64,000 bases of DNA, taken from Taiwanofungus camphoratus (taxonomy: Eukaryota > Basidiomycota > Agaricomycetes > Polyporales > Taiwanofungaceae). The stretch is taken from contig CP021233.1 of assembly GCA_003999685.1 (NCBI GenBank), positions 806,001 to 870,000 of the forward strand. The letters run 5' to 3'. Positions 1 to 28,394 of the stretch are shown here, piece after piece (positions within the stretch are counted from its first letter, which is position 1; the number at the start of each line of letters is the position of its first letter). The position numbers were made by a program, and so were the translations under genes. The notes under the pieces are model-generated. The model ran no database searches, was not told where the DNA came from, and was given only the letters and a program-made list of their open reading frames with translations.

Positions 1-1713
1 GGGTAGTGTGATAACTGTGAGGGTGTGAGGGTAGGAGCTACAACCTGTATGATACCGGGAAACCTGTATGTCTTGTTTTTGTAAGTAGGGGAGTAAGGGG
101 CCAAGGGTCCTGCTCAACAGGATCTTGTTCCTAAGTGCTATACAATCCCTAAGGCCTTGCGAGGCCCTCCGAAGTACACGAAGTCCTTCGAGATTCTGCG
201 AAGTCCTTCGAAGTTTTAGCTAAATCGCGCGAGCTGACTTCGTAGGCTGTATAGAGTTAGGGAGCAATAAGCCAATGGACTATAATTTCTACCAAGCGGC
301 AGAGGGTACAAGACTGCTGCGAAGTCCCTTTTAGCTAGAGTTAGCTAAAGGGCGTAAGGCTTAGAGGTTTGTTAGAGCGAAGTGGGCGAGGTTTGGCCGG
401 CGTAGGAGACTTGTAGGAGAGGTCGGATGGTTCGGAGAGCTAATACTTGGAATAGGAATGAGGGAACGAGGTTTCTGGAAGCTCTGAAGTGTCTGATGAC
501 GTCGAGGTGTGGGTCGGAGAGTTCGAGGGCGTAGAGAGATGTACTATAGCCTGTAATGAAGGTTATGGGGGAGTCGTAGGGTTATTCGTAGGACGTAGGG
601 ATGACGCAACGTGAGCCTAAGGGTATAACTAAGGTGGAGGCCCACCGGATAGGTGCTATAAGAGGTGCTGAAGGGCACGAAGTCACGGCGACTTCATAGA
701 TCGTAGTGCGTAGTTCGGGAAGCGTAGACGTAGTTCGTAGATATATCGCGAGCGTAGACGTAGTTCAAAGGTACTGAAACGAAGCTGGGGTGGAGACTTA
801 GGGACCTTAGGACCGTTCCTAAGGTTGTACTCACGGCGCTTTCCTAAGATCGGAGCTACAGGGGAACTGGTATTCCAAAGAGAGAAGCGTGCACTGAGGG
901 GTCTCTCTTGTACATAGTAAACTACCTCTGACTAAATAGGGGAGCGTGAGGTGAACTAATCTTGCGCGAAGTGATCCTTACGAGTCCGAAATGTGTACTA
1001 AAGCGCATGGACTCCGAAGTGAACACGAGGAGGATAGGAACTAATTAGGAACTGAAACAGGGGAACTACGTACGGTAGAAAGGTGACCAAGTTCATTCAC
1101 AAGGGCGGGATGACTATCCGAGAGCAGCCATGCACCGTGATCACCTATCTTAGTGGGCTAAGAGCGCACAAAGTCCTTAGCAGCGGGACTTGGCCTAGTC
1201 GGGGCAGGAGGTGTCCTAAATGGGTGGAGGGTCATATGGATATGCCCTAGGATGACCTTATGGCATAGGATCGAGACCCATGGGGGTGCACAAGGCTTCC
1301 TAAGTCCAACTTCTGGAACTTCGGACCGTTTCGGAGCCTATCGGAGGTAGCTGCAATCACAAGAGCTAGGAGAGACTTAGCTAAGACTTCTTAGCTAAGC
1401 CCGGGATGAGTGACGTAGTAGATAGGACCTAGATCCAATGGAACAGTATGGGAGGGCCGGCAGTGTCCGATAGTGGACTTAGCAGGAGTTAGGGACTTCG
1501 CGTCTAGCATTCGAAATCTCGTAGCACCTCGTGTGACTTCGCAAGACTTCGTAGGGTGTTAGGAGGGTTTAGGAAGGAGAGGGGGCGTTAGGAATATTAT
1601 AGGAACCTATCCCTCCTGTCGTAGGCTGTAGGAGAGTCTTAGAGTGGTCGGTTGGGGGATTAGAAAGCTCCTAAAATCGCGATTCGGGGCCCAGGAGGCT
1701 ACAGGACTCATCA
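1..1713 (-). repeat. Solo LTR, left copy, minus orientation, outer end off the window
   Basis: This block is the reverse complement of 3367-4973: its first bases match the complement of 4910-4919 and its inner end matches the complement of 3367 onward. Read on the minus strand it starts TGATGAGTCC at 1713. The other copy ends GTATCA, so the unit has the TG...CA ends of an LTR. No gag-pol lies next to it, so it is a solo LTR or the remnant of one. By comparison with the right copy about 54 bp of its outer end lie beyond the window. It carries roughly 160 nt more than the right copy, in two blocks (about 265-331 and 430-525). Small differences between the copies look mostly like transitions. 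It contains no convincing ORF. The inner flank is ACGT at 1714-1717. Confidence 0.85.
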
Positions 1714-2204
1714 ACGTTCAGGACATTGAAGTCTCCGGACGGAAGCTTAAGCGCGACCAAAAGGCAATCCTTATGGGAGACACTATGGGTGACAACTTGC
1801 GGAGAGGCCGAAGCCCACCGCTTGTTGACATAAACGGCAACTCGGGAATCATTCGATGCCCCGAGGCACTTGAACGAGGCATGGGCAGACGTATTCTCAT
1901 ACACCTCCCCATCTCGTGACTTTGCTGATGCCACATTCTTGATGCGTCCCCAGTATATTTTTTGGATACAGATTATATCGGCATCTCTGTGTCTTTCCAG
2001 CAAAATACCAGTATTTTCCGCCGATTTCTGGACATTTGCGCTGATAATAGTGAGGACAGGCCAATTATTCGGTTCATTCTCAATTTGTTCGCCTCCAGCC
2101 AACGGGCTAGGTGTGCGTTTAGGGTCCGGTGCCTCAAATGGAGACTCAGATCTATCATGTGTGATATTTACAACTGATCTTTGCGTTGTACTATACATAG
2201 GCAA
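1714..2204 (-). pseudogene. LINE ORF2 5' fragment (start of APE-type endonuclease)
   Basis: The frame encodes the first part of an apurinic-type endonuclease domain: the ISANVQKSAEN strand, the DADIIC strand and the SRVAVYVNKRW segment. It then runs into LTR sequence after FNVLNV. In LINE copy 2 the metal-binding Glu lies in VQEIFW; here the same place reads IQKIYW, a Glu to Lys change that should inactivate the nuclease. The stretch upstream of the endonuclease has only a faint match to copy 2 (DP-RTPSP), and the first 100-130 nt of the domain differ more from copy 2 than the rest does. The continuation of this ORF is at 4974 on the other strand. Confidence 0.8.
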
Positions 2205-2220
2205 CTATAGAATTGTCCGC

Positions 2221-3366
2221 TTATGCGGCAGAACTTCCAGCACCTCGAGGCCTGGGCGTGCTTGAGTCGCTGGAATGAATTTCTCCGCTTTCGTGACCAG
2301 ATACGCCTTCTGCATCAGAAGGGTCCGTGATCTCAAACGACTCACCCGAAGGTCCGGGGCGAGCTGGCTGTTTGCCGCGTGCCTTTTCAGATAGGCCACG
2401 TAACTTTCCTCTGGTGGCAGCTTTCGCTGCTGCCGCCCTTCCTTTAGCAACAGACACCACCGGCGGATGGGCCTTATGCCATTGTTGATCTCTTCGCTTC
2501 TTCACCCACTGGCACTTGGGTGAGTCAGCTTGGTGTCTGTCGTCGCCAGTTTTGCCACAATTAGGGCAGCTGGCGTGCTCTGGTGGGCATGCGATGGTTT
2601 TCACCGACATTGCAGCCCTTCGTTGCGCACAACACGAAGATTGTTCTTCGTGTAATGCCAAGATATGAGGCTCGCCACATTTGACGCAACACTCATGGGC
2701 AGATTGGCATAATGGGGCAATATGACCCCATCGCCAACACCGGAGGCAGAGCGGGACGGCTGAAGTCTCGATCCACGGTTGTAAGCGGTATGTCTTGCCG
2801 AATAGATGGACCGGTTTCTTCATGATCCAGATAGCCGTTGAGCCAGACCAGGTGTCAAAGATGGCGAATATAAATAAGCCACTGCCTCCTGAGGCCGATT
2901 GATATCGGGCCTTCGGCAAATGATGTGGGTGTAGGACCATTTCCTCCGCCCATTCGTTGTTTCGCACCAGTTCTTGATAAACTTCAAGCGGCGTGTATTT
3001 GATCCTAGTGCCGTTCCGGTACAGCGGGAACGCCTTGATCGCCATCTGAGTGATGATATGTGTCCAATCAAGCGAAAGCCCGACCGGGTTCATTCCATCC
3101 GGTGCCACATGGGGTGCGACTAGTCGTCCTATGCCAGCTCGAAGGGCGCCCATTTCCAATGTGTTGGGTCGTTCACTGCATACCAAATGTATCTCCCCGT
3201 TTCCGGGTGGTACAATGGCATTAACTAAATAGTTGACGGAGCCTCCTGCTCCTGCCAGCAGTTGTTGAACGACTACCTTGAGGTTGTCGATGTCTAGAAG
3301 ATCTCCGAGTTCTAAGGCTCGGTCAAATCTAAGAACCACGGTTTTGGGGCTCGCACCCCTGGCCGG
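2221..3366 (-). pseudogene. LINE ORF1 (gag-like, CCHC zinc knuckles), 5' end cut off by LTR
   Basis: The reading frame is open from the LTR junction at 3366 to a TAA at 2221-2223, about 380 codons, with no start of its own; the first in-frame codons near the LTR are non-ATG. The C-terminal half holds a CX2CX4HX4C zinc knuckle (CLRCWRWGHIAPLC), a second CVKC...H cluster and a CPNC...H...C cluster, followed by a basic, Ser/Pro-rich tail. This is the usual layout of LINE ORF1 RNA-binding proteins in fungal Tad1-like elements. ORF1 would coat the element RNA in the retrotransposition particle. The N-terminal part must lie to the left of the window if the inversion model is right. ORF1 is absent from LINE copy 2. 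Confidence 0.75.
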
Positions 3367-4973
3367 TGATGAGTCCCGTAGCCTCCTGGGCCCCGAATCG
3401 CGATTTTAGGAGCTTTCTAATCCCCCAACCGACCACTCTAAGACTCTCCTACAGCCTACGACAGGAGGGATAGGTTCCTATAATATTCCTAACGCCCCCT
3501 CTCCTTCCTAAACCCTCCTAACACCCTACGAAGTCTTGCGAAGTCACACGAGGTGCTACGAGATTTCGAATGCTAGACGCGAAGTCCCTAACTCCTGCTA
3601 AGTCCACTATCGGACACTGCCGGCCCTCCCATACTGTTCCATTGGATCTAGGTCCTATCTACTACGTCACTCATCCCGGGCTTAGCTAAGAAGTCTTAGC
3701 TAAGTCTCTCCTAGCTCTTGTGATTGCAGCTACCTCCGATAGGCTCCGAAACGGTCCGAAGTTCCAGAAGTTGGACTTAGGAAGCCTTGTGCACCCCCAT
3801 GGGTCTCGATCCTATGCCATAAGGTCATCCTAGGGCATATCCATATGACCCTCCACCCATTTAGGACACCTCCTGCCCCGACTAGGCCAAGTCCCGCTGC
3901 TAAGGACTTTGTGCGCTCTTAGCCCACTAAGATAGGTGATCACGGTGCATGGCTGCTCTCGGATAGTCATCCCGCCCTTGTGAATGAACTTGGTCACCTT
4001 TCTACCGTACGTAGTTCCCCTGTTTCAGTTCCTAATTAGTTCCTATCCTCCTCGTGTTCACTTCGGAGTCCATGTGCTTTAGTACACATTTCGGACTCGT
4101 AAGGATCACTTCGCACAAGATTAGTTCACCTCACGTTCCCCTATTTAGTCAGAGGTAGTTTACTATGTACAAGAGAGACCCCTCAGTGCACGCTTCTCTC
4201 TTTGGAATACCAGTTCCCCTGTAGCTCCGATCTCAGGAAAGCGCCGCGAGTACAGCCTTAGGAACGGTCCTAAGGTCCCTAAGTCTCCACCCCAGCTTCG
4301 TTTCAGTACCTTTGAACTACGTCTACGATCGCGATATATCTACGAACCACGTCTACGCTTCCCGAACTACGCACTACGATCCACGAAGTCGCCGTGACTT
4401 CGCACCTTTCGGCACCTCATATAGCATCTACCCGGTGGGCCTCCGCCTTAGTTATACCCTTAGGCTCACGTTGCGTCATCCCTACGTCCTACAAATAGCC
4501 CTACGACTCTCCCATAGCCTTAGTTTCAGGCTATAGTACATCTCTCTACGCCCTCGAACTCTCCGACCTCTCCTACAGGTCTCTTACGCTAGCCAAACCT
4601 CGCCCACCTCGCTCTAACAAACCTCTAAACCTTACGCCCTTTAGCTAACTCTAGCTAAAAGGACTTCGCAGCATCTACGAAGTCAGCTCGTGCGACTTAG
4701 CTAAAACTTCGAAGGACTTCGCAGAATCTCGAAGAACTTCGCGTACTTTGGAGGGCCTCGCAAGGCCTTAGGGATAGTATAGCACTTAGGAACAAGATCC
4801 TGTTGTGCAGGACCCTTGACCCCTTACTTCCCTACTTACAAAAACAAGACATACAGGTTTCCCGGTATCATACAGGTTGTAGCTCCTACCCTCACACCCT
4901 CACAGTTATCACACTACCCCACAGCCACGTTGCGGAGCACTCCCTAGATACCAGGGTCCCCTAGGTCGTATCA
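3367..4973 (+). repeat. Solo LTR, right copy, plus orientation
   Basis: Begins TGATGAGTCC and ends TCGTATCA. The next bases, ACGT (4974-4977), repeat the ACGT found at the inner edge of the left LTR (1714-1717). LINE copy 2, which has no insertion here, reads AACGTGTACAACG across the site, so this LTR interrupts ORF2 with a 4-bp target duplication (5 bp, AACGT, if the LTR ends at TATC). The other side of this LTR is preceded by ORF1 sequence ending CCGG (3363-3366). There is no internal retrotransposon sequence, so the element has already been reduced to a solo LTR. At about 1.6 kb it is long for a fungal LTR. Confidence 0.85.
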
Positions 4974-4977
4974 ACGT
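4974..4977. repeat. Target-site duplication ACGT (partner at 1714-1717)
   Basis: ACGT directly follows the right LTR and, in inverted context, directly borders the left LTR inside the flipped segment. The uninterrupted ORF2 of copy 2 has a single AACGT at this position. The site is palindromic, as is CCGG at the other LTR-ORF1 junction. Confidence 0.7.
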
Positions 4978-7900
4978 GTACAACGACAGCACCACCTTTG
5001 ATGCTGTCAGATATTTGGAAACACGTGTCCACGCGCTTCCACCCATTGCATGCATGTGTGGGGATTATAATCTCCGCCACCCATTGTGGGATGCACGTGC
5101 TGTGGGATCTCAGATGCAGCCTCCGCACTACACTGATTCCAATCGCCTTATCGAGCTGGCCCAGGCCGAACTCGATCTGGTCTTGCTGAATGCCCAGGAC
5201 GGTCCAGTCACTTGGCGTTCTCACAATATCGCTCTCACGCCTGGAGTCATTGACTTGGTGTGGATCGACCCAGTGTACTATGAAGGCCAAGACCTTCATA
5301 TACTCATGTCACATCACCACAACAGCGACCATGCGGTCCTGCGGTGGGAGATGCCGATTGAAGTTGAGCCAGAACCGGTGCGGGATATACCTCGCACTGG
5401 CGATGCGGCCCAATAATTCGTGATGGCAACGGCGAAATTGTTCGCTGATTACCCTACACATTTCAGCAGTGCTCAAGGCGTTGAACGGATGGGGGACCGC
5501 CTTGAGCGGGACCTCCAACGACTATGGATGGAGTTTTCATCAGAAAAGTGTCCATCCAAACGCTCAAAGTCGTGGTGGGATGCTGCATGCTCCCGTGCGG
5601 CCACTAAGCTGGCGAACACCCAGCACCGTCTTAGTGTGGCGTCTGAGCAGTACTGCTACACACGTCATCAGTTGGGACCTGGCGCACAGGCCACTGCAGA
5701 TGCATATGATGTTGCCGCTGAACTTCGGTCCGAGCAGCATAAACAACGTGCAACACTCTGCCTTGCCACGAAGCGGGCGAAGCGTGCACACTTTGATCGG
5801 ATCATGGATGAATCCAATCCCCAATTGATCTCAGACTTTGTTGCCTGGACAAAGCCGAGACGACAAGAGGCCACTATTCAGCTGCGGCAAGCTGATGGTG
5901 CACCAGTCCAAAGTGCGGCTGATCTCAGTCATGCTTTTCAAGCTCAGTTCACACCTGCCAACCCACGGCCGGTGGACCTGTCATTTGTGGACGAAATTCC
6001 TCAACGGGAGGAATTGACTCTACCAGACATTAGTGAGTTTGAGATTCGTGAGAATCTTAAATCCACTAGCAATACATCTGCACCCGGTCCCGATCACGTG
6101 AACTGGATGTGGATTAAATGGTTGGTGGACCGGATCGAGCGCTCTGAGGAGGGCATCGAGACCGATCTCGGTATACACGTGCGGCAGTGGCTGCGTGCGT
6201 ACTATAACGCTTGCCTCAATTTCGAGGTCTATCCGAGCATATTCAAACGGTCTGTTACGGTGGTTTTACCCAAACCGAACAAACCGGACTATACGCTAGC
6301 GAAGGCCTATAGGCCTATTTGCTTGCTGAACTGTTTTGGCAAACTGTTCGAAAAGATCATTGTCAAACAAATGCAGTGGGATGCCCAGAAATGGGGAATC
6401 CTACACCCATGTCAGTTTGGTGGGGCTATGCAACATAGTACCACTGACGCTGGCATCCAGCTTGTGCACAATGTCAAAGAGGCATGGGTGCGCAACCTTA
6501 TCCCATCGGTGCTATTGCTCGATGTATCACAGTTCTACCCATCCATCAATCATGATGTGCTGGTAGGAATCATGCAAAAGCAGGGTTTCAATAGCAAGCT
6601 CTGCAATTTCATGGCAAATTACTTGATCGGGCGAAAAACCCGATTCTTGTTCAATGGCACCTTGACCGATCCATCTGACTTTGATGTCGGAGTCGGTCAG
6701 GGATCAAGTTTATCCCCAATTCTATCTGGGGTTTACATTGCACCGGTCATACACAAGTGGGTGCCAGTCCATTTGGTACAACTGGGCCGAACCGGGACCC
6801 AGTTCTACGTGGACGACGGTCTCATCATGGCGGTTTCGCCAAAGGCTGTTGATGACAGCCCGCAAGCCCTTGTCCTGAAGAACAACGCTATTTTGGCGGA
6901 TGTCTTCCATGATCTTGTTGGCGATCTAAACCGTTTAGGTTTAGGTGTCGAAGAAGATAAACTGGAGCTGATGCACTTCTGGAAGCGCCAGAAGGGGTAT
7001 TCGACTTCACGACCCCTTGGCCCAAATCTAACCATCCGGACTGATGGACATGACGTCACTTTGCGAGCAAAGGACACAATGCGCTATCTTGGGTTCTTTT
7101 TAGATCCTAAGCTTAGCTTCCATGCACATGTGCGGTTTTACGCCAATAAGGCGGCCAGCACGTGCAATGCACTTCACATGCTCAGTAATTTGGCACGCGG
7201 ATTCCATCCCATCAACAAAAGGCGGCTCTATATAGCGCACGTCGTTCCGTTGATGCTATACGGCGCTCAACTGTGGTGGAATCCACAGTGGAAGGGCCTC
7301 AAATGGGCTGCAAAAGAACTGCAGACCGCCCAGTCGAGAGCAGCTAGGTGGATCACCGGCTGTTTTAAGACCACACCGATCAGGGCGATGGAGATGTTGG
7401 GTGGATTGGTCCCCATCCGCATCCAGGTCGACCGGTACATGGAAAAAGCTGCGCTTAGAGCACGGTGAGTTCATGAAGGGCACCCAATGAGGGCCGCTCT
7501 TCCATCTTATTGGGCGACTAACATCACCAATATTACTGCGACATGGCTGCTTAATTCGCACCGTGGCAAAAAACAGGCTGTCACCCCCATGATGTTCATA
7601 GATCGCATCGGGCGGCAGTCATCAGAAGACTTTGCACCACTCCATTCAGAGGCACGGCCCGGTGATCGGGTCGTGGATCGGTACATTGATCGCTTCGAGC
7701 GGGTGTTCCTGGACGGAAAGGGTCCAAACAAACGCTCTCCTGAATTCGCCGACTGGTTGGAGTTCACCTGATGGCTGGAATTCCGGCGCCAGCTGACCCA
7801 GCCAGAAGGGCGAATGCTGTTCACTGACGGGTCGTATGCAAATGCGCCAACAGTGAGATCTGGTAGCGCGTGGCTCGTCATTGATGGGGAAGATCACGTT

Positions 7901-8992
7901 GCCCATGGAAAGTTCGGGGCTGGCAAGGTCCAGAGTTTCGATGCAGAGATGCTGGCATTGGCGCGCGGGCTGCGTGAAGTGGTCCGTGACGTCCCTGCCC
8001 ACATCACCACCCTCATAGTCTGTTCCGATAACCAATCAGCACTCGACAGAATATTCAAGCCGGAAGTTGGGCCGTCGCAGATGGTGGCGGTCATGGCTTC
8101 TCAACACGTAAGAGCATTTCTCGATGCGGATGAACGCCGACACATTGTCCTTTTTTGGGTTCCATCCCATAAAGGCATTTTTCAGAACGAGTTCGTTGAT
8201 GAACTCGCGAAGAAGGCATTGGATGATCCCCAACCAGAATTCATCTCACAATCAATGGCCCTTGCTCACGTCAAGGCAAGGGTCAAAAAGCGCTGGGGGA
8301 CACTAGTCGACAATCCCAGCTATCACGGTCGTCAGTTATGGAAAGTAACCGAGGACACCCTACCGCTGCATGGGACCACGGCCAAGGGTACATGGGTCTT
8401 GAAGGCAGCTGGCAAGTCCAACAAGGAGGTGGCACGCGTGTGTCGTGTGCTCACCAACCATTTCCCAGGCGGTGAATACTGATCTAGGTTCAACATCCCA
8501 GGCCCTCACCTCTGCTTGTGTGGAGTGGAGGAAACCAGGGAACATGTGCTATTCGACTGTCCATTCTGGATCAGGACGAAGCGCCAACAGGGTCCTTGTG
8601 ATCCGCTTCTGATGGGGCCCCCTGAACAAAGGGGATGGACCTCGGATGACATAATGGAGTTCCTTCGGCTGAACCCGATGGTCTCCACCTTTGATTGGGC
8701 GGAGATTCTGGTGGAATCTCTGCTTGAAGCTGAAGCTGCACGCACGAGAACATTCACTCGTGCTCGTCTTATGTGCCACACTGTCGGAAGACAAGCGGCT
8801 TGGCAGCGGTTCCATGCGGACCGACATTTAGATCCCGGTATGACCACTGCCCTGGGTGGAAAATACCGGGATTTCTGTGAGTGGTATGACGCTGAAACAA
8901 AGGCATTTGAATTATACCATAATTGGGTAGATGAGGGGGTAGCGGAACCCAGTATCCGCGACGACCCTCCCGTCTACCCGAATGATAACTGA
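4974..8992 (+). pseudogene. LINE ORF2 3' part: endonuclease end, reverse transcriptase, RNase H
   Basis: Close homologue of the intact ORF2 at 23104-28056 but split by four in-frame stops: TAA 5414-5416, TGA 7466-7468, TGA 7769-7771 and TGA 8480-8482. Compared with copy 2 the first three are CAA to TAA, CGA to TGA and TGG to TGA, all C-to-T or G-to-A. The fourth faces CGC and fits a CGA intermediate. Visible motifs are GDYNLRHPLWD and SDHAVLRWE of the endonuclease, LLLDVSQFYPS, GQGSSLSPIL and FYVDDG of the reverse transcriptase, and TDGSY, DAEML, CSDNQSAL and NEFVDELAK of RNase H. It ends with a CLCG...H...C zinc cluster. It cannot make a full protein. Confidence 0.92.
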
Positions 8993-9571
8993 GGCCCGAA
9001 ACCTGTAGGGCTAAACTCAGTTCGAAGGGTGTATTACTGACGACACGGGATCACCGGGCCGGGTAAAACACACAGAGCGTGAAAAGTGGGTCGGGCGGGG
9101 GATGGGTACGGCGTCCTATGGATGACTGTACCTTTCCTTTTGCAGGCCTTACTGGATTATATGCCCACGCCACATAACGAGGCCACCAAAACCTATAGAT
9201 GTGCCGCTCATGCGGGCGCGGATGCCCACTTATTATCATTATTACTCTACATGTACCTACGTCGTATGGAGTATAAACTTGAGGAATTAAAAAAAAAAAA
9301 AAAAAAGAGTCAAATCACCATTTGATACTTATGCATGCATGAGTTTGATGCTACAGTCCATTTTATGATACCATACTTAAAGGGGTGAAAAGGATCGATA
9401 CTGTAGAACTTCCTAGTCAGCAGTCAAGAAATTTGCATAAAGATACATGAGACATATTGTTGGTCGGGAATCTACATTGAGGCATGATGAATCTCAAGAC
9501 GTTAGCGCTACAATGTAATAATAACTTAGCAGGTTGCAAAAAGGTTACGAGTGATAAGGGAAAGCAGGTTG

Positions 9572-23034: not shown

Positions 23035-23048
23035 AAGGCTGATCGATC
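23035..23048. repeat. 5' target-site duplication of LINE copy 2
   Basis: AAGGCTGATCGATC here is repeated exactly at 28381-28394, directly after the poly(A) tail (the first two A are shared with the tail, so 12-14 bp). This length is normal for target-primed reverse transcription. Confidence 0.9.
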
Positions 23049-26000
23049 GGGCCGCTCCTTGAACCAGTACCACCACCATCTCGATTTAGCGCCCGTGTCT
23101 GGCATGTCTAAATCCCATCGTTTCCTTCCCTATTCTCCCCATACTGGTGCCCTTATAGCCGCTGTTGGTCCTAGGACTGATAGTGCACCCACCTCGTCGA
23201 GTGCGATGTCGGTGCATGGCGGCTGCCCTGCTCATCGCACTCAAGCTGACTCGGACCACCCGAGATCTCGTCCTTTGGACACACCTTTGAACTCACCCTA
23301 TCATGGGGAGAGTTCCACTTCGAGCTCCTCTCTTTCGAGAGGTCCTCTCTTTGAATCGACGGCCATAGTGCCCGACGATTCACAAAGGACTCGTAGGCCC
23401 TCTCCCTCTGAGGGAGGGGGTAACGAATACCATGGTATTGGAGGCAGCCATGCTGTCTCCATGCCCCTTGCCCACGCTGGAAGTGCATGGCACTCCAGTT
23501 CAGGCCAAGCGCCAATAAACCCGTATGGGCTTAATGAGTCAGTGTGTGAACCGGAAATTTCCGACGGTGCTTCGGCCCCACCGTTTGGAACTCCGCCGGA
23601 GTCACAAAATAATGAACGGCCCGATTCCCCCATGGAGGTGGAAGCGGACCCCTCCCGTACGCCCAGCCCAACGGCTGATGGCGACAATCTGAGAGGCGAA
23701 CCTACTAGGCTCGCACTCACATGCATAAGTGCAAATGTCCAGAAATCTGCGGAGAATATGGGCATTTTGCTTGAGAGACATAGGGACGCCGACATTATCT
23801 GCGTCCAGGAGATATTCTGGGGTCGTATCAAGGATGTGGCCTCAGCTAAGTCACGGGACGGGGAGGCGTATGAGAATACGTCTGCCCATGCCTCGTTTAA
23901 GTGCCTCGGGGCATCGAAAGATTCCCGAGTCGCAGTCTATGTCAACAAGCGGTGGGCCGCGGCCTCCCCGCAAGTTGTCACCCACAGCGTCTCCCATAAG
24001 GACTGCCTTATGGTAGCGCTTAAGCTTCCGTCCGGGGACTTTAATGTCCTGAACGTGTACAACGACAGCACCACCTTTGATGCTGTCAGATATCTGGAAA
24101 CACGTGTACACACGCTTCCACCCATTGCGTGTATGTGCGGGGATTTCAATCTCCGCCACCCATTGTGGGATGCACGAGCTGCGGGATCTCGGGTGCGGCC
24201 TCCGCATTACGCTGATTCCAATCGCCTCATCGAGCTGGCCCAGACCGAACTCGATCTGGTTTTGATGAACGCCCAGGACGGTTCAGTCACTTGGTGTTCC
24301 CACAACATCACTCTCACACCTGGAGTCATAGACTTGGTGTGGATCGACCCAGCGTACTATGAAGGCCAAGACCTTCATGTACTCATGTCACATCGTCACA
24401 ACAGCGACCACGCGGTCCTGCGGTGGGAGATGCCGATTGAAGTTGAACCAGAAACGGTGCGGGGGATTCCTCGTACCGGTGACACGGCCCAACAATTTGT
24501 GACGGCAACGGCGAAACTGTTCGTCGATTACCCTACACACTTCAGCAGCGCCCAGGGCGTTGAACGAATGGGGGATCGTCTCGAGCGAGACCTCCAACGA
24601 CTATGGATGGAATTTTCAGCAGTAAAACGTCCATCCAAACATTCAAAGTCGTGGTGGGATGCTGCATGCTCCCGCGCGGCTACTCAGTTGGCGAACACCC
24701 AACACCGCCTCAGTGCGGCGTCGGGGCAGTATCGCTACATACGTCATCAGTCGGGACCTGGCGCTCAGGCCACTGCAGACGCATACGACATTGCTGCCGA
24801 ACTTCGGTCCGAACGGCATAAACAACGTGCAACACTCCGCCTTGCCACGAAGCGGGCGAAGCGAGCACACTTTGATCGGATCATGGATGAATCCAATCCC
24901 CAATCGATCTCAGACTTTGTCGCATGGACAAAGCCGAGACGACAAGAGGCCACTATTCAGCTGCGGCAAGCTGATGGTGCGCCAGTTCAAAGTGCGGCTG
25001 ATCTCAGTCGTGCTTTCCAAGCTCAGTTCACGCCTGCCAACCCACGGCCGGTGGATCTGACGTTCGTAGACGAAATTCCTCAAAGGGAGGAATTGACTCT
25101 ACCAGACATTAGTGAGACTGAGATTCGCGAGAATCTCAAATCCACTAGTAATACGTCCGCAGCCGGTCCCGATCACGTGAACTGGATGTGGATTAAATGG
25201 ATGGTGGACCGGATCGAGCGCTCCGAGGAGGGCATCGAGACCAATCTCGGCATACACGTGCGGCAGTGGCTGCGCGCGTACTATAACGCTTGCCTCGATT
25301 TCAAGGTTTATCCGAGCATCTTTAAGCGGTCTGTTACGGTGGTGTTACCCAAACCGAACAAACCAGACTATACGCTAGCGAAGGCCTATAGGCCTATCTG
25401 CTTGCTGAACTGCTTCGGCAAATTGTTCGAAAAGATCATTGCCAAGCGAATGCAGTGGGATGCCCAGAAGTGGGAAATCCTACACCCATGCCAGTTCGGT
25501 GGGGCTATGCAGCATAGCACCACTGACGCCGGTATCCAACTTGTACACAATGTCAAAGAGGTATGGGCGCGCAACCTTATCCCATCGGTGCTATTGCTCG
25601 ATGTGTCCCAATTCTACCCGTCCATCAATCATGATGCGCTGGTAGGAATCATGCGAAAGCAGGGCTTCAATAGTAAGCTCTGCAATTTCATGGCAAATTA
25701 CTTGATTGGGCGTAAAACCCGATTCTTGTTCAACGGTACCCTGACCGATCCATCTGACTTTGATGTCGGAGTTGGTCAGGGTTCTAGCTTATCCCCGATC
25801 TTATCTGGGATTTACATTGCACCGGTCATACACAAGTGGGCGCCAGTCCATTTGGTACAACCGGGCCGAACCGGGACTCAGTTCTATGTGGACGACGGTC
25901 TCATCATGGCAGCTTCGCCGAAGGCTGTCGACGACAGCCCGCAAGCCCTTGTCCTGAAGAATAACGTCATATTGGCGGATATCTTCCACAATCTCGTAGG

Positions 26001-28382
26001 TGACCTAAACCGGTTAGGTTTAGGCGTCGAAGGAGACAAGCTGGAGCTGATGCACTTCTGGAAGCGCCAGAAGGGGTATTCGACTTCCCGACCCCTCGGT
26101 CCGGATCTTACCATCCGGACTGATGGACATGATGTCACTTTGCGAGCAAAGGACACGATGCGCTATCTTGGGTTCTTTTTAGACCCCAAGCTTAGCTTCC
26201 ATGCACACGTGCGGTTCTACGCTAACAAGGCGGCCAGCACGTGCAATGCACTCCGCATGCTCGGTAACTCGGCACGCGGATTCCATCCTATCAACAAGCG
26301 GCGGCTCTATATAGCGCACATCGTTCCGTTGATGCTATACGGCGCTCAACTGTGGTGGAACCCACAGTGGAAGGGCCTCAAATGGGCTGCAAAAGAACTG
26401 CAGACCGCTCAGTCAAGAGCAGCTCGGTGGATAACCGGCTGCTTTAAGACCACACCGATCGGGGCAATGGAGATGTTGGGTGGGTTGGTCCCCATCCGCA
26501 TCCAGGTTGACCGGTACATGGAAAAGGCTGCACTTAGAGCGCGGCGAATTCATGAAGGGCACCCAATGAGGGCCGCTCTCCCACCATATTGGGCGACCAA
26601 CGTCACCAATATCACTGCGCCATGGCCGCTCAACTCGCGACGTGGCAAAAAACAGGCTGTCACCCCCATGACATTCATAGATCGCATCGGGAGACAGTCA
26701 TCAGAAGAATTTGCACCACTCCACCCGGAGGCGCGGCCCGGTGATCGGGTCGTGGATCGGTACATTGATCACTTCGAGCGGGTGTTTTTGGACGGAAAAG
26801 GTCCAAACAAAAGCTCTCCTGAATTCGCCGACTGGTTGGAGTTCACCTGGTGGCCGGAATTCCGGCGCCAGTTGGCCCAGCCAGAAGGGCGAATGTTATT
26901 CACTGATGGGTCGTATAAGAATGCACCCACAGTAAGATCTGGTAGCGCGTGGCTCGTCATTGATGGGGAAGATCACGTTGCCCATGGAAGATTTGGGGCC
27001 GGAAAGGTCCAAAGCTTCGATGCGGAGATGCTGGCATTGGCGCGCGGGCTGCGAGAAGCGGTCCGTGACGTCCCTGCCCACATCACCACCCTCACGGTCT
27101 GTTCCGATAACCAATCGGCACTTGACCGAATTTTCAAGCCGGAAGTTGGACCGTCACAGATGGCGGCGGTCATGGCTTCTCAGCACGTCCGAGCGTTCCT
27201 CGATGCAGATGAACGCCGACGCATTGTCCTTTTATGGGTTCCATCCCATAAAGGCATTTTTCAGAACGAGTTCGTCGATGAACTCGCAAAGAAAGCATTG
27301 GATGATCCCCAACCGGAATTCATCTCACAATCGATGGCTCTTGCCCGGGTCAAGGCAAGGGTCAAAAGGCGCTGGGGAACGCTAGTCGATAACCCCAGCT
27401 ATCGCGGTCGACGGTTATGGAAAGTAACCGAGGACGCCTCACCGCTGCACGGGACTACGGCCAAGGGCACGTGGGTCTTGAAGGCAGCTGGCAAGTCCAA
27501 CAAGGAGGTGGCACGCGTATGTCGCGTGCTTACCAACCATTTCCCTGGCGGTGAATACCGCTCTCGGTTCAATATCCCTGGACCTCACCTCTGCCTATGT
27601 GGAGCGGAGGAAACTAGGGAACATGTTCTCTTCGACTGTCCGTTTTGGATCAGGACGAAGCGCCAACAGGGTCCTCGTGATCCGCTTCTGATGGGGCCCC
27701 CTGAACAAAAGGGATGGACCCCGGATGACATCATGGAGTTCCTTCGGCTCAACCCGATGGTCTCCACATTTGACTGGGCAGAGATTCTAGCTGAATCTCT
27801 GCTTGAAGCTGAAGCTGCGCGCACGAGGACATTAACTCGTGCCCGTTTAATGTGCCACACTGTCGGAAGACAAGCGGCCTGGCAACGGTTCCATACGGAC
27901 CGACATTTAGATCCCGGTATGACCACCGCCCTGGGTGGAAAGTACCGAGATTTCTGCGAGTGGTACGACGCCGAGGCAAAGGCGTTCGAAATGTACCATA
28001 ACTGGATAGATGAGGGGATAGCGGAACCTAGTATCCGCGACGACCCTCCCGTCTAACCAACAGACAACTGAGGCCCGAAACCTGTAGGGCTAGACTCAGT
28101 TCCTTACGTGATTTACTAACGGTACGGGATTACCGAGCCGAGTAAACACATAGAGCGTGAAAAACGGGTCGGGGTCGGGTATGGCGTCGTATGGCGACTG
28201 TACGCTTCCTTTAGACCTTGTTGGATTACATGCCCACGCCATATAACGAGGCCACCGAAAACAGTAGGTGTGCCGCTCATGCGGGCGCGGATGCCCACTT
28301 ACTATCATTATTACTCTACATGTACCTACGTCGTATGGAGTATAAACCCGAAGAATTAAAAAAAAAAAAAAAAAAAAAAAAA
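23049..28382 (+). mobile_element. LINE copy 2, young insertion with intact ORF2
   Basis: Flanked by a 12-14 bp target duplication (23035-23048 and 28381-28394) and ending in 25 A (28358-28382). It starts just ahead of ORF2 and has no ORF1, so it is probably 5' truncated, as is common for LINEs. The 3' UTR matches that of copy 1. The perfect duplication, long A tail and stop-free ORF2 show a recent insertion. The domain order (APE endonuclease, RT, RNase H, C-terminal zinc cluster) fits fungal Tad1-like LINEs. Confidence 0.95.
23104..28056 (+). CDS. LINE ORF2: endonuclease, reverse transcriptase, RNase H
   Basis: The frame is open from the insertion edge. The first ATG is at 23104, giving 1650 residues; an N-terminal extension is possible if the element is 5' truncated. 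Residue numbers below count from the codon at 23059. After about 220 Ser/Pro-rich residues comes an APE-type endonuclease (ISANVQKSAEN, VQEIFW, GDFNLRHPLWD with Asp362, SDHAVLRWE). The reverse transcriptase follows with LLLDVSQFYPS, GQGSSLSPIL and YVDD at 943-946. RNase H has TDGSY (Asp1283), DAEML, CSDNQSAL and NEFVDELAK. A CLCG...H...C zinc cluster lies near 1511-1530. All catalytic residues I can identify are present and there is no stop or frameshift. The protein nicks DNA and copies the element RNA at the nick. Confidence 0.95.
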   Translation: MSKSHRFLPYSPHTGALIAAVGPRTDSAPTSSSAMSVHGGCPAHRTQADSDHPRSRPLDTPLNSPYHGESSTSSSSLSRGPLFESTAIVPDDSQRTRRPSPSEGGGNEYHGIGGSHAVSMPLAHAGSAWHSSSGQAPINPYGLNESVCEPEISDGASAPPFGTPPESQNNERPDSPMEVEADPSRTPSPTADGDNLRGEPTRLALTCISANVQKSAENMGILLERHRDADIICVQEIFWGRIKDVASAKSRDGEAYENTSAHASFKCLGASKDSRVAVYVNKRWAAASPQVVTHSVSHKDCLMVALKLPSGDFNVLNVYNDSTTFDAVRYLETRVHTLPPIACMCGDFNLRHPLWDARAAGSRVRPPHYADSNRLIELAQTELDLVLMNAQDGSVTWCSHNITLTPGVIDLVWIDPAYYEGQDLHVLMSHRHNSDHAVLRWEMPIEVEPETVRGIPRTGDTAQQFVTATAKLFVDYPTHFSSAQGVERMGDRLERDLQRLWMEFSAVKRPSKHSKSWWDAACSRAATQLANTQHRLSAASGQYRYIRHQSGPGAQATADAYDIAAELRSERHKQRATLRLATKRAKRAHFDRIMDESNPQSISDFVAWTKPRRQEATIQLRQADGAPVQSAADLSRAFQAQFTPANPRPVDLTFVDEIPQREELTLPDISETEIRENLKSTSNTSAAGPDHVNWMWIKWMVDRIERSEEGIETNLGIHVRQWLRAYYNACLDFKVYPSIFKRSVTVVLPKPNKPDYTLAKAYRPICLLNCFGKLFEKIIAKRMQWDAQKWEILHPCQFGGAMQHSTTDAGIQLVHNVKEVWARNLIPSVLLLDVSQFYPSINHDALVGIMRKQGFNSKLCNFMANYLIGRKTRFLFNGTLTDPSDFDVGVGQGSSLSPILSGIYIAPVIHKWAPVHLVQPGRTGTQFYVDDGLIMAASPKAVDDSPQALVLKNNVILADIFHNLVGDLNRLGLGVEGDKLELMHFWKRQKGYSTSRPLGPDLTIRTDGHDVTLRAKDTMRYLGFFLDPKLSFHAHVRFYANKAASTCNALRMLGNSARGFHPINKRRLYIAHIVPLMLYGAQLWWNPQWKGLKWAAKELQTAQSRAARWITGCFKTTPIGAMEMLGGLVPIRIQVDRYMEKAALRARRIHEGHPMRAALPPYWATNVTNITAPWPLNSRRGKKQAVTPMTFIDRIGRQSSEEFAPLHPEARPGDRVVDRYIDHFERVFLDGKGPNKSSPEFADWLEFTWWPEFRRQLAQPEGRMLFTDGSYKNAPTVRSGSAWLVIDGEDHVAHGRFGAGKVQSFDAEMLALARGLREAVRDVPAHITTLTVCSDNQSALDRIFKPEVGPSQMAAVMASQHVRAFLDADERRRIVLLWVPSHKGIFQNEFVDELAKKALDDPQPEFISQSMALARVKARVKRRWGTLVDNPSYRGRRLWKVTEDASPLHGTTAKGTWVLKAAGKSNKEVARVCRVLTNHFPGGEYRSRFNIPGPHLCLCGAEETREHVLFDCPFWIRTKRQQGPRDPLLMGPPEQKGWTPDDIMEFLRLNPMVSTFDWAEILAESLLEAEAARTRTLTRARLMCHTVGRQAAWQRFHTDRHLDPGMTTALGGKYRDFCEWYDAEAKAFEMYHNWIDEGIAEPSIRDDPPV

Positions 28383-28394
28383 GGCTGATCGATC
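28381..28394. repeat. 3' target-site duplication of LINE copy 2
   Basis: Exact repeat of 23035-23048. Confidence 0.9.

Follow-up and report, generated by a model that had tools for sequence, protein, structure and literature searches.

The 64,000-nucleotide stretch of Taiwanofungus camphoratus DNA analysed here (the window, C14:806001-870000 of a 33.2-Mb, 15-contig assembly) begins inside a long interspersed nuclear element (LINE) whose middle part lies backwards between two long terminal repeats (LTRs) of opposite orientation. Very probably, one LINE received two opposed LTR-element insertions, both were reduced to solo LTRs, and recombination between these LTRs then flipped the interval. 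Both the reversal and the exchange of the LTR target duplications are shown to be present in the assembly, and the inversion is known here from assembled sequence alone.

The LINE is a single insertion spanning approximately C14:804403-815306, with its own perfect 14-bp target duplication (GAGTCAAATCACCA) and an A-tail. The 3' copy of this duplication lies directly 3' of the A-run, and alignments of the disrupted LINE with other copies begin at L009:5405-5406, just after the 5' copy. Because the duplication brackets the LINE, the ORF1 part on the left and the ORF2 part on the right (ORF, open reading frame) form opposite ends of one insertion. When the LTRs and one copy of each of their duplications are subtracted, the element measures about 7.5 kb (7522); it has both a poly-A tail and a target duplication, and its ORF2 encodes Exo_endo_phos_2, RVT_1, and RNase_H domains (Pfam), as in LINEs with an apurinic-type endonuclease. 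ORF1 stays in frame across the left LTR, with ...ATQP in the plus-strand part followed by PARGASP in the minus-strand part, where P corresponds to the duplicated CCG.

Both ends of the LINE are on the plus strand and its middle is on the minus strand, and the plus reading resumes at window position 4974. This arrangement had been proposed by the first-pass annotation from the letters of the window, and it is confirmed by the comparison with other copies. Among 42 listed matches to the ORF1 piece, five other LINE loci were aligned (L013, L014, which is the same locus as L097, L015, L099, and L100). All five carry the pieces in the order 5' ORF1, middle, 3' ORF2 in a single orientation, and the joints between the three pieces overlap by 2-4 bases. 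The minus-strand middle of the LINE is out of place, in an arrangement far beyond what chance would give. Colinearity at these loci, all from one assembly, together with the LINE's own duplication gives the ancestral orientation.

The same copies bear on the proposal that two LTR insertions entered one LINE, one in ORF1 and one in ORF2, and they uphold it, as does the 14-bp duplication of the LINE. The ORF1 insertion site is empty in 3/3 other copies, where a query containing CCGG once gives a gapless alignment; the ORF2 site is empty in 4/4, where a query with both ACGT copies is four bases longer. A LINE copy at 23.0-28.4 kb of the window retains an intact ORF2 site. This second copy (window 23035-28394) is bounded by a 14-bp duplication of its own, AAGGCTGATCGATC, at 23035-23048 and 28381-28394, and has an A-run. 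It contains a 1717-aa open frame with ORF2 domains and no ORF1 match, and its resemblance to the start of the disrupted LINE is limited to roughly the first 36 bp. At L099 and L100 an LTR of the family that bounds the inverted segment interrupts the 5' ORF1 piece. The LINE at L100 (C10:528300-538200) contains two such LTRs that face the same way, the second of them truncated where the locus ends, and its middle is not inverted; it is a natural contrast to the inverted locus.

The LTRs that bound the inverted segment are homologous copies in opposite orientations, and the left end of the window accordingly contains inverted-repeat arms of 1211 nt (98%), 245 nt (96%), and 108 nt (93%). The first-pass annotation had read the two flanking blocks as one LTR facing both ways, which is borne out by their exact ends, the inverted arms, and the TG...CA termini. 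It had also predicted that an extension to the left would reveal about 54 bp more of LTR, then CCGG, and then the N-terminal part of ORF1 on the plus strand. The extended assembly agrees in each respect: the LTR continues to C14:805947 and is followed by CCGG and by ORF1 in frame. Coordinates of all parts are collected in Table 1.

Table 1. Parts of the disrupted LINE and the two LTRs within it (window positions unless another reference is given)
Feature	Position	Strand	Remarks
Left solo LTR, Ty3/Gypsy-like, long subfamily, 1767 bp	L009:6947 (C14:805947) to window 1713	-	3' terminal 54 bp outside the window, C14:805947-806000
ACGT, duplication of the ORF2-site LTR insertion	1714..1717	.	now on the inner side of the left LTR
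Inverted LINE segment	1714..3366	-	3' ORF1 part 2224-3366 and 5' ORF2 part 1716-2204; one copy of each LTR duplication inside
CCGG, duplication of the ORF1-site LTR insertion	3363..3366	.	now on the inner side of the right LTR; other copy L009:6943-6946, outside the window
Right solo LTR, short subfamily, 1607 bp, TGATGAG...CGTATCA	3367..4973	+	no difference from the left LTR in bases 12-708
ACGT, second copy of the ORF2-site duplication	4974..4977	.	outer side of the right LTR
Remaining LINE: rest of the endonuclease domain, reverse transcriptase, RNase H, A-run tail	4976..9306	+	frame broken by stop codons
LINE's own 14-bp target duplication, 3' copy	9307..9320	.	5' copy L009:5389-5402 = C14:804389-804402, outside the window

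An inversion by recombination between LTRs predicts that the target duplications of the two insertions are exchanged, so the flanks at this locus support the inversion. Read in LTR orientation, they are ACGT|CCGG for the left LTR and CCGG|ACGT for the right LTR, which are reciprocally exchanged duplications, and the junctions between LTR and LINE show no additional small insertion or deletion. Given how often CCGG and ACGT occur among 272 listed LTR ends, the chance that a given other LTR would have the reciprocal flanks is about 2%, with frame continuity not yet counted.

The internal structure of the LTRs is consistent with such an exchange. By its outer part, the left LTR is a member of a subfamily whose LTRs measure about 1765 bp. 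The outer part of the right LTR is of a shorter subfamily (about 1607 bp), in which two stretches, one of about 91 bp and one of about 68 bp, are missing; between the two outer halves there are 43 differing sites. On the side facing the inverted segment, bases 12-708, the two LTRs show 0/697 differences. Of 60 other LTRs in the alignment, from which L092 and three rows that duplicated others had been dropped, the nearest has 6 differences in this tract, and among 928 pairs of one long and one short LTR the left-right pair is the only one with zero, the median being 18. An identical inner tract between outer halves from two subfamilies is likely explained by conversion during the exchange, on statistical grounds.

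Taken together, these observations support the following course. The LINE inserted on C14, leaving its 14-bp duplication and A-tail. Two Ty3/Gypsy-like elements of the same family then entered it in opposite orientations, one in ORF1 at CCGG and the other in ORF2 at ACGT, as the 4-bp duplications and the empty sites of other LINE copies show, and each would have lost its interior and one LTR by recombination, as the solo state suggests. Homologous recombination between the opposed LTRs would finally have reversed the 1.65-kb interval, probably with the exchange within LTR bases 12-708 and a conversion that made this tract identical in both copies. Sequence divergence fits this order of LINE, LTRs, and flip, as the three LINE pieces are 86-91% identical to the copy on C4, the outer LTR parts share 98.4% and 97.5% identity with the closest relatives in the sample, and the inner LTR tracts show no difference.

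Several points weigh against this account. The un-flipped form is deduced from LINE copies at other loci and not from the same locus in another strain. The two LTRs share 0 private alleles in the tract relative to the 60 other aligned LTRs; they share two rare alleles, each of which also occurs in 2/60. No site diagnostic of a subfamily lies before LTR base 932. With an identical inner tract and outer halves of two subfamilies, each LTR may be chimeric, but the inner half has no diagnostic sites that would show it. A count of 0 differences in the tract also occurs in five other LTR pairs, whose members come from one subfamily in each case, and each of the three dropped rows matched another along its full length. 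Two of them represent the paired LTRs of a single element; the third is from the opposed neighbours L051 and L052 (C4:1249766 on the plus strand and C4:1243126 on the minus strand), which do not differ anywhere in their 1747 bp. L052 is a solo LTR whose flanks match, CCGG|CCGG, and L051 is a 5' LTR; therefore, identity between opposed LTRs also occurs without exchanged flanks.

We surveyed other opposed LTRs in a list of 272 LTR ends (exact matches followed by NCG, with GCGA left out), which contained 40 pairs of opposed neighbours no more than 12 kb apart. In 12 of these pairs all four flanks were read, and duplications were exchanged in 1/12, the pair at the LINE locus only. The flanks of another of the 12, C8:846082/848131, match after CpG decay. 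The pair C3:1641468/1642822 was excluded, both members being 3' LTRs of longer elements, and pairs were left out where no LTR 5' end was seen (L105, L106, L113, L116, L120, L122, L123, L128, L129, and L140; the L140 stretch was cut at an LTR 3' end, where no 5' end is expected). Among 72 solo LTRs examined, a sample enriched for close neighbours, 17 have flanks that are mismatched even when CpG decay is allowed for, which suggests that recombination between LTRs of different elements often rearranges this genome. The pair at the LINE locus is alone in having reciprocal flanks among the 136 pairings of these 17 LTRs.

Two further arrangements were seen among the opposed LTRs. The LTRs C11:1505868 (-) and C11:1510591 (+) have mismatched flanks of their own, GCGT|ACGG and CCGA|CCGT, and their outermost flanks match, CCGT...CCGT on the plus strand. 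LTR ends are arranged as mirror images with equal spacings at C8:848131-853405 (2518, 2518) and C3:1632108-1652182 (9360, 9360), which suggests inverted duplications; the C8 mirror pair also shares a decayed upstream flank in opposite orientation.

An assembly artefact, in which an interval that truly lies in the original orientation was joined backwards through the identical tract, is very improbable. A tract of 697 bp exceeds short reads and is near the length of a Sanger read, and sequence alone cannot separate the two orientations; part of the 17 solo LTRs with mismatched flanks could likewise be misjoins. Against this, the 286,338 fetched bases (overlapping stretches counted repeatedly) contain no N, and the eleven other opposed neighbouring pairs are without exchanged flanks. 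Moreover, all five elements of about 12 kb for which both outer flanks were read (L020/L021, L007/L008, L083 with C8:1740022, L095 with C4:457771, and L045 with C4:723740) show matching duplications across near-identical LTRs, which indicates that the assembly resolves longer repeats at those places and is not proof for the LINE locus. There is next to no probability that separate, opposed LINE fragments came together by chance with no inversion. LINE copies are numerous, as the 42 matches indicate, and some carry LTRs; however, the frame and the target duplications run on across both LTRs, and one 14-bp duplication encloses the entire LINE.

The remaining alternatives concern how and when the interval turned. 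Template switching during replication at the inverted repeats, rather than crossing-over between intact LTRs, would give the same product, and opposed repeats of about 1.6 kb around a 1.65-kb spacer would suit as substrates. Nevertheless, no feature of the product requires it and the LTR-LINE junctions have no small indel, and we consider it decidedly unlikely. It is possible, if less probable, that the elements were still full-length at the flip and that each became solo later. Copies of about 12 kb exist in the family and the present sequence does not date solo formation, while a flip between two solo LTRs needs fewer intermediates, an argument from parsimony only. The first-pass annotation had solo reduction followed by the flip; the exchanged duplications support inversion by LTR recombination, and the order of the two events is not fixed by the sequence. 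We are doubtful that the opposed LTRs form a still-active switch, in which repeated recombination would keep the 697 bp identical and both orientations would occur among nuclei or strains.

The assignment of the blocks to an LTR family was based on a wider sample. Up to 3 mismatches, 449 3' ends were found genome-wide, of which 100 were listed; three other searches for the family took the best 40 of 527, 525, and 536 candidates, and 64 LTRs were extracted from 86 loci. The 5' end TGATGAGT is present in 64/64 of the extracted LTRs and the 3' end TCGTATCA in 62/64; L027 ends in TCATATCA, and L092 had a false 3' end and was dropped. The blocks start with TGATGAG and finish with CGTATCA, that is, TG...CA with a short target duplication. 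With repeats removed, the inner junctions are constant, TTTCTGG following 8 LTRs at the 5' side and GGAGG preceding 10 at the 3' side, a putative primer site and polypurine tract. Among the best 40 of the 527 candidates, some LTRs are paired in direct orientation about 10.5 kb apart, and elements of about 12 kb exist. The interior of one such copy (L096) encodes an aspartyl protease, RT_RNaseH, and Integrase_H2C2, in that order; the RVT_1 and rve models gave no match at E up to 1 in two rescanned interior ORFs. Protease, reverse transcriptase/RNase H, and integrase is the domain order of Ty3/Gypsy elements, and on these sequence features the blocks are classified as LTRs of a Ty3/Gypsy-like retrotransposon.

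A Ginger-type DNA transposon was also tried for the blocks, prompted by their 4-bp, CG-centred duplications, and was ruled out by the paired copies with constant inner junctions and by the protease, RNase H, and integrase domains that the interior encodes. No terminal inverted repeats of 40-270 bp were seen at the block ends, which share only TGAT/ATCA. As described in the passages cited, Ginger1 (PMC2836005) likewise makes 4-bp CG-centred duplications (CCGG or CCGT/ACGG) with a Gypsy-type integrase, and it has terminal inverted repeats of 40-270 bp, unlike the LTRs and the protease/RNase H/integrase interior here.

The process itself is textbook; the mechanism adds nothing new, and it is the preservation that is unusually clear. 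We make no claim to the first LTR inversion with exchanged duplications, and related work exists in open-access full texts. The following comparisons refer to the cited parts of these texts. Work on Drosophila describes how ectopic recombination between transposon copies in opposite orientations yields chimeric copies whose duplications are exchanged (PMC2775673, PMC3355041). The Galileo inversion 2z3 (PMC2775673) and the BuT5 inversion 2s (PMC3355041) resemble the LINE locus in their opposed copies, exchanged duplications, and inverted segment between them; however, Galileo and BuT5 are DNA transposons and the inversions are chromosomal, whereas here solo LTRs within a LINE bound a 1.65-kb flip. 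Both Galileo copies are proven chimeric (PMC2775673), in contrast to the inner LTR halves here, which have no diagnostic sites, and one BuT5 breakpoint has just a footprint-like remnant (PMC3355041), unlike the LINE locus. Copies of the LTR retrotransposon Ty1 are reported to mediate inversions, deletions, and translocations in Saccharomyces cerevisiae (PMC3102749), in selected laboratory rearrangements between Ty elements and not as a fixed, nested solo-LTR scar. The element crapaud of Podospora anserina (PMC10787394) also has common solo LTRs, with subfamily LTRs mixed by conversion or ectopic recombination; it is a different element, and no inversion with exchanged duplications is described in the passages cited.

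The integration target of the family is a further feature of the data. The central two bases of the target are CG in 99/108 LTR flanks, which were sampled regardless of the flank, and CA or TG in the other 9; CG makes up 5.9% of the dinucleotides in the window. CA and TG are decay products of CG. The family thus appears to insert only at NCGN, and because the flank centres are CG or its decay forms, its integrase seems to make cuts four bases apart around CpG. No LTR elements with a CpG-centred target were found in the literature, as judged mostly by titles.

The inverted locus has no evident function and is a scar, one that records four steps at a single place: the arrival of a LINE, the entry of two LTR elements, their reduction to solo LTRs, and the flip. 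It also carries a warning, in that coding sequence on the minus strand between LTRs need not have been inserted on its own. For the biology of the LTR family, its CpG-centred target may merit more attention than the inversion.

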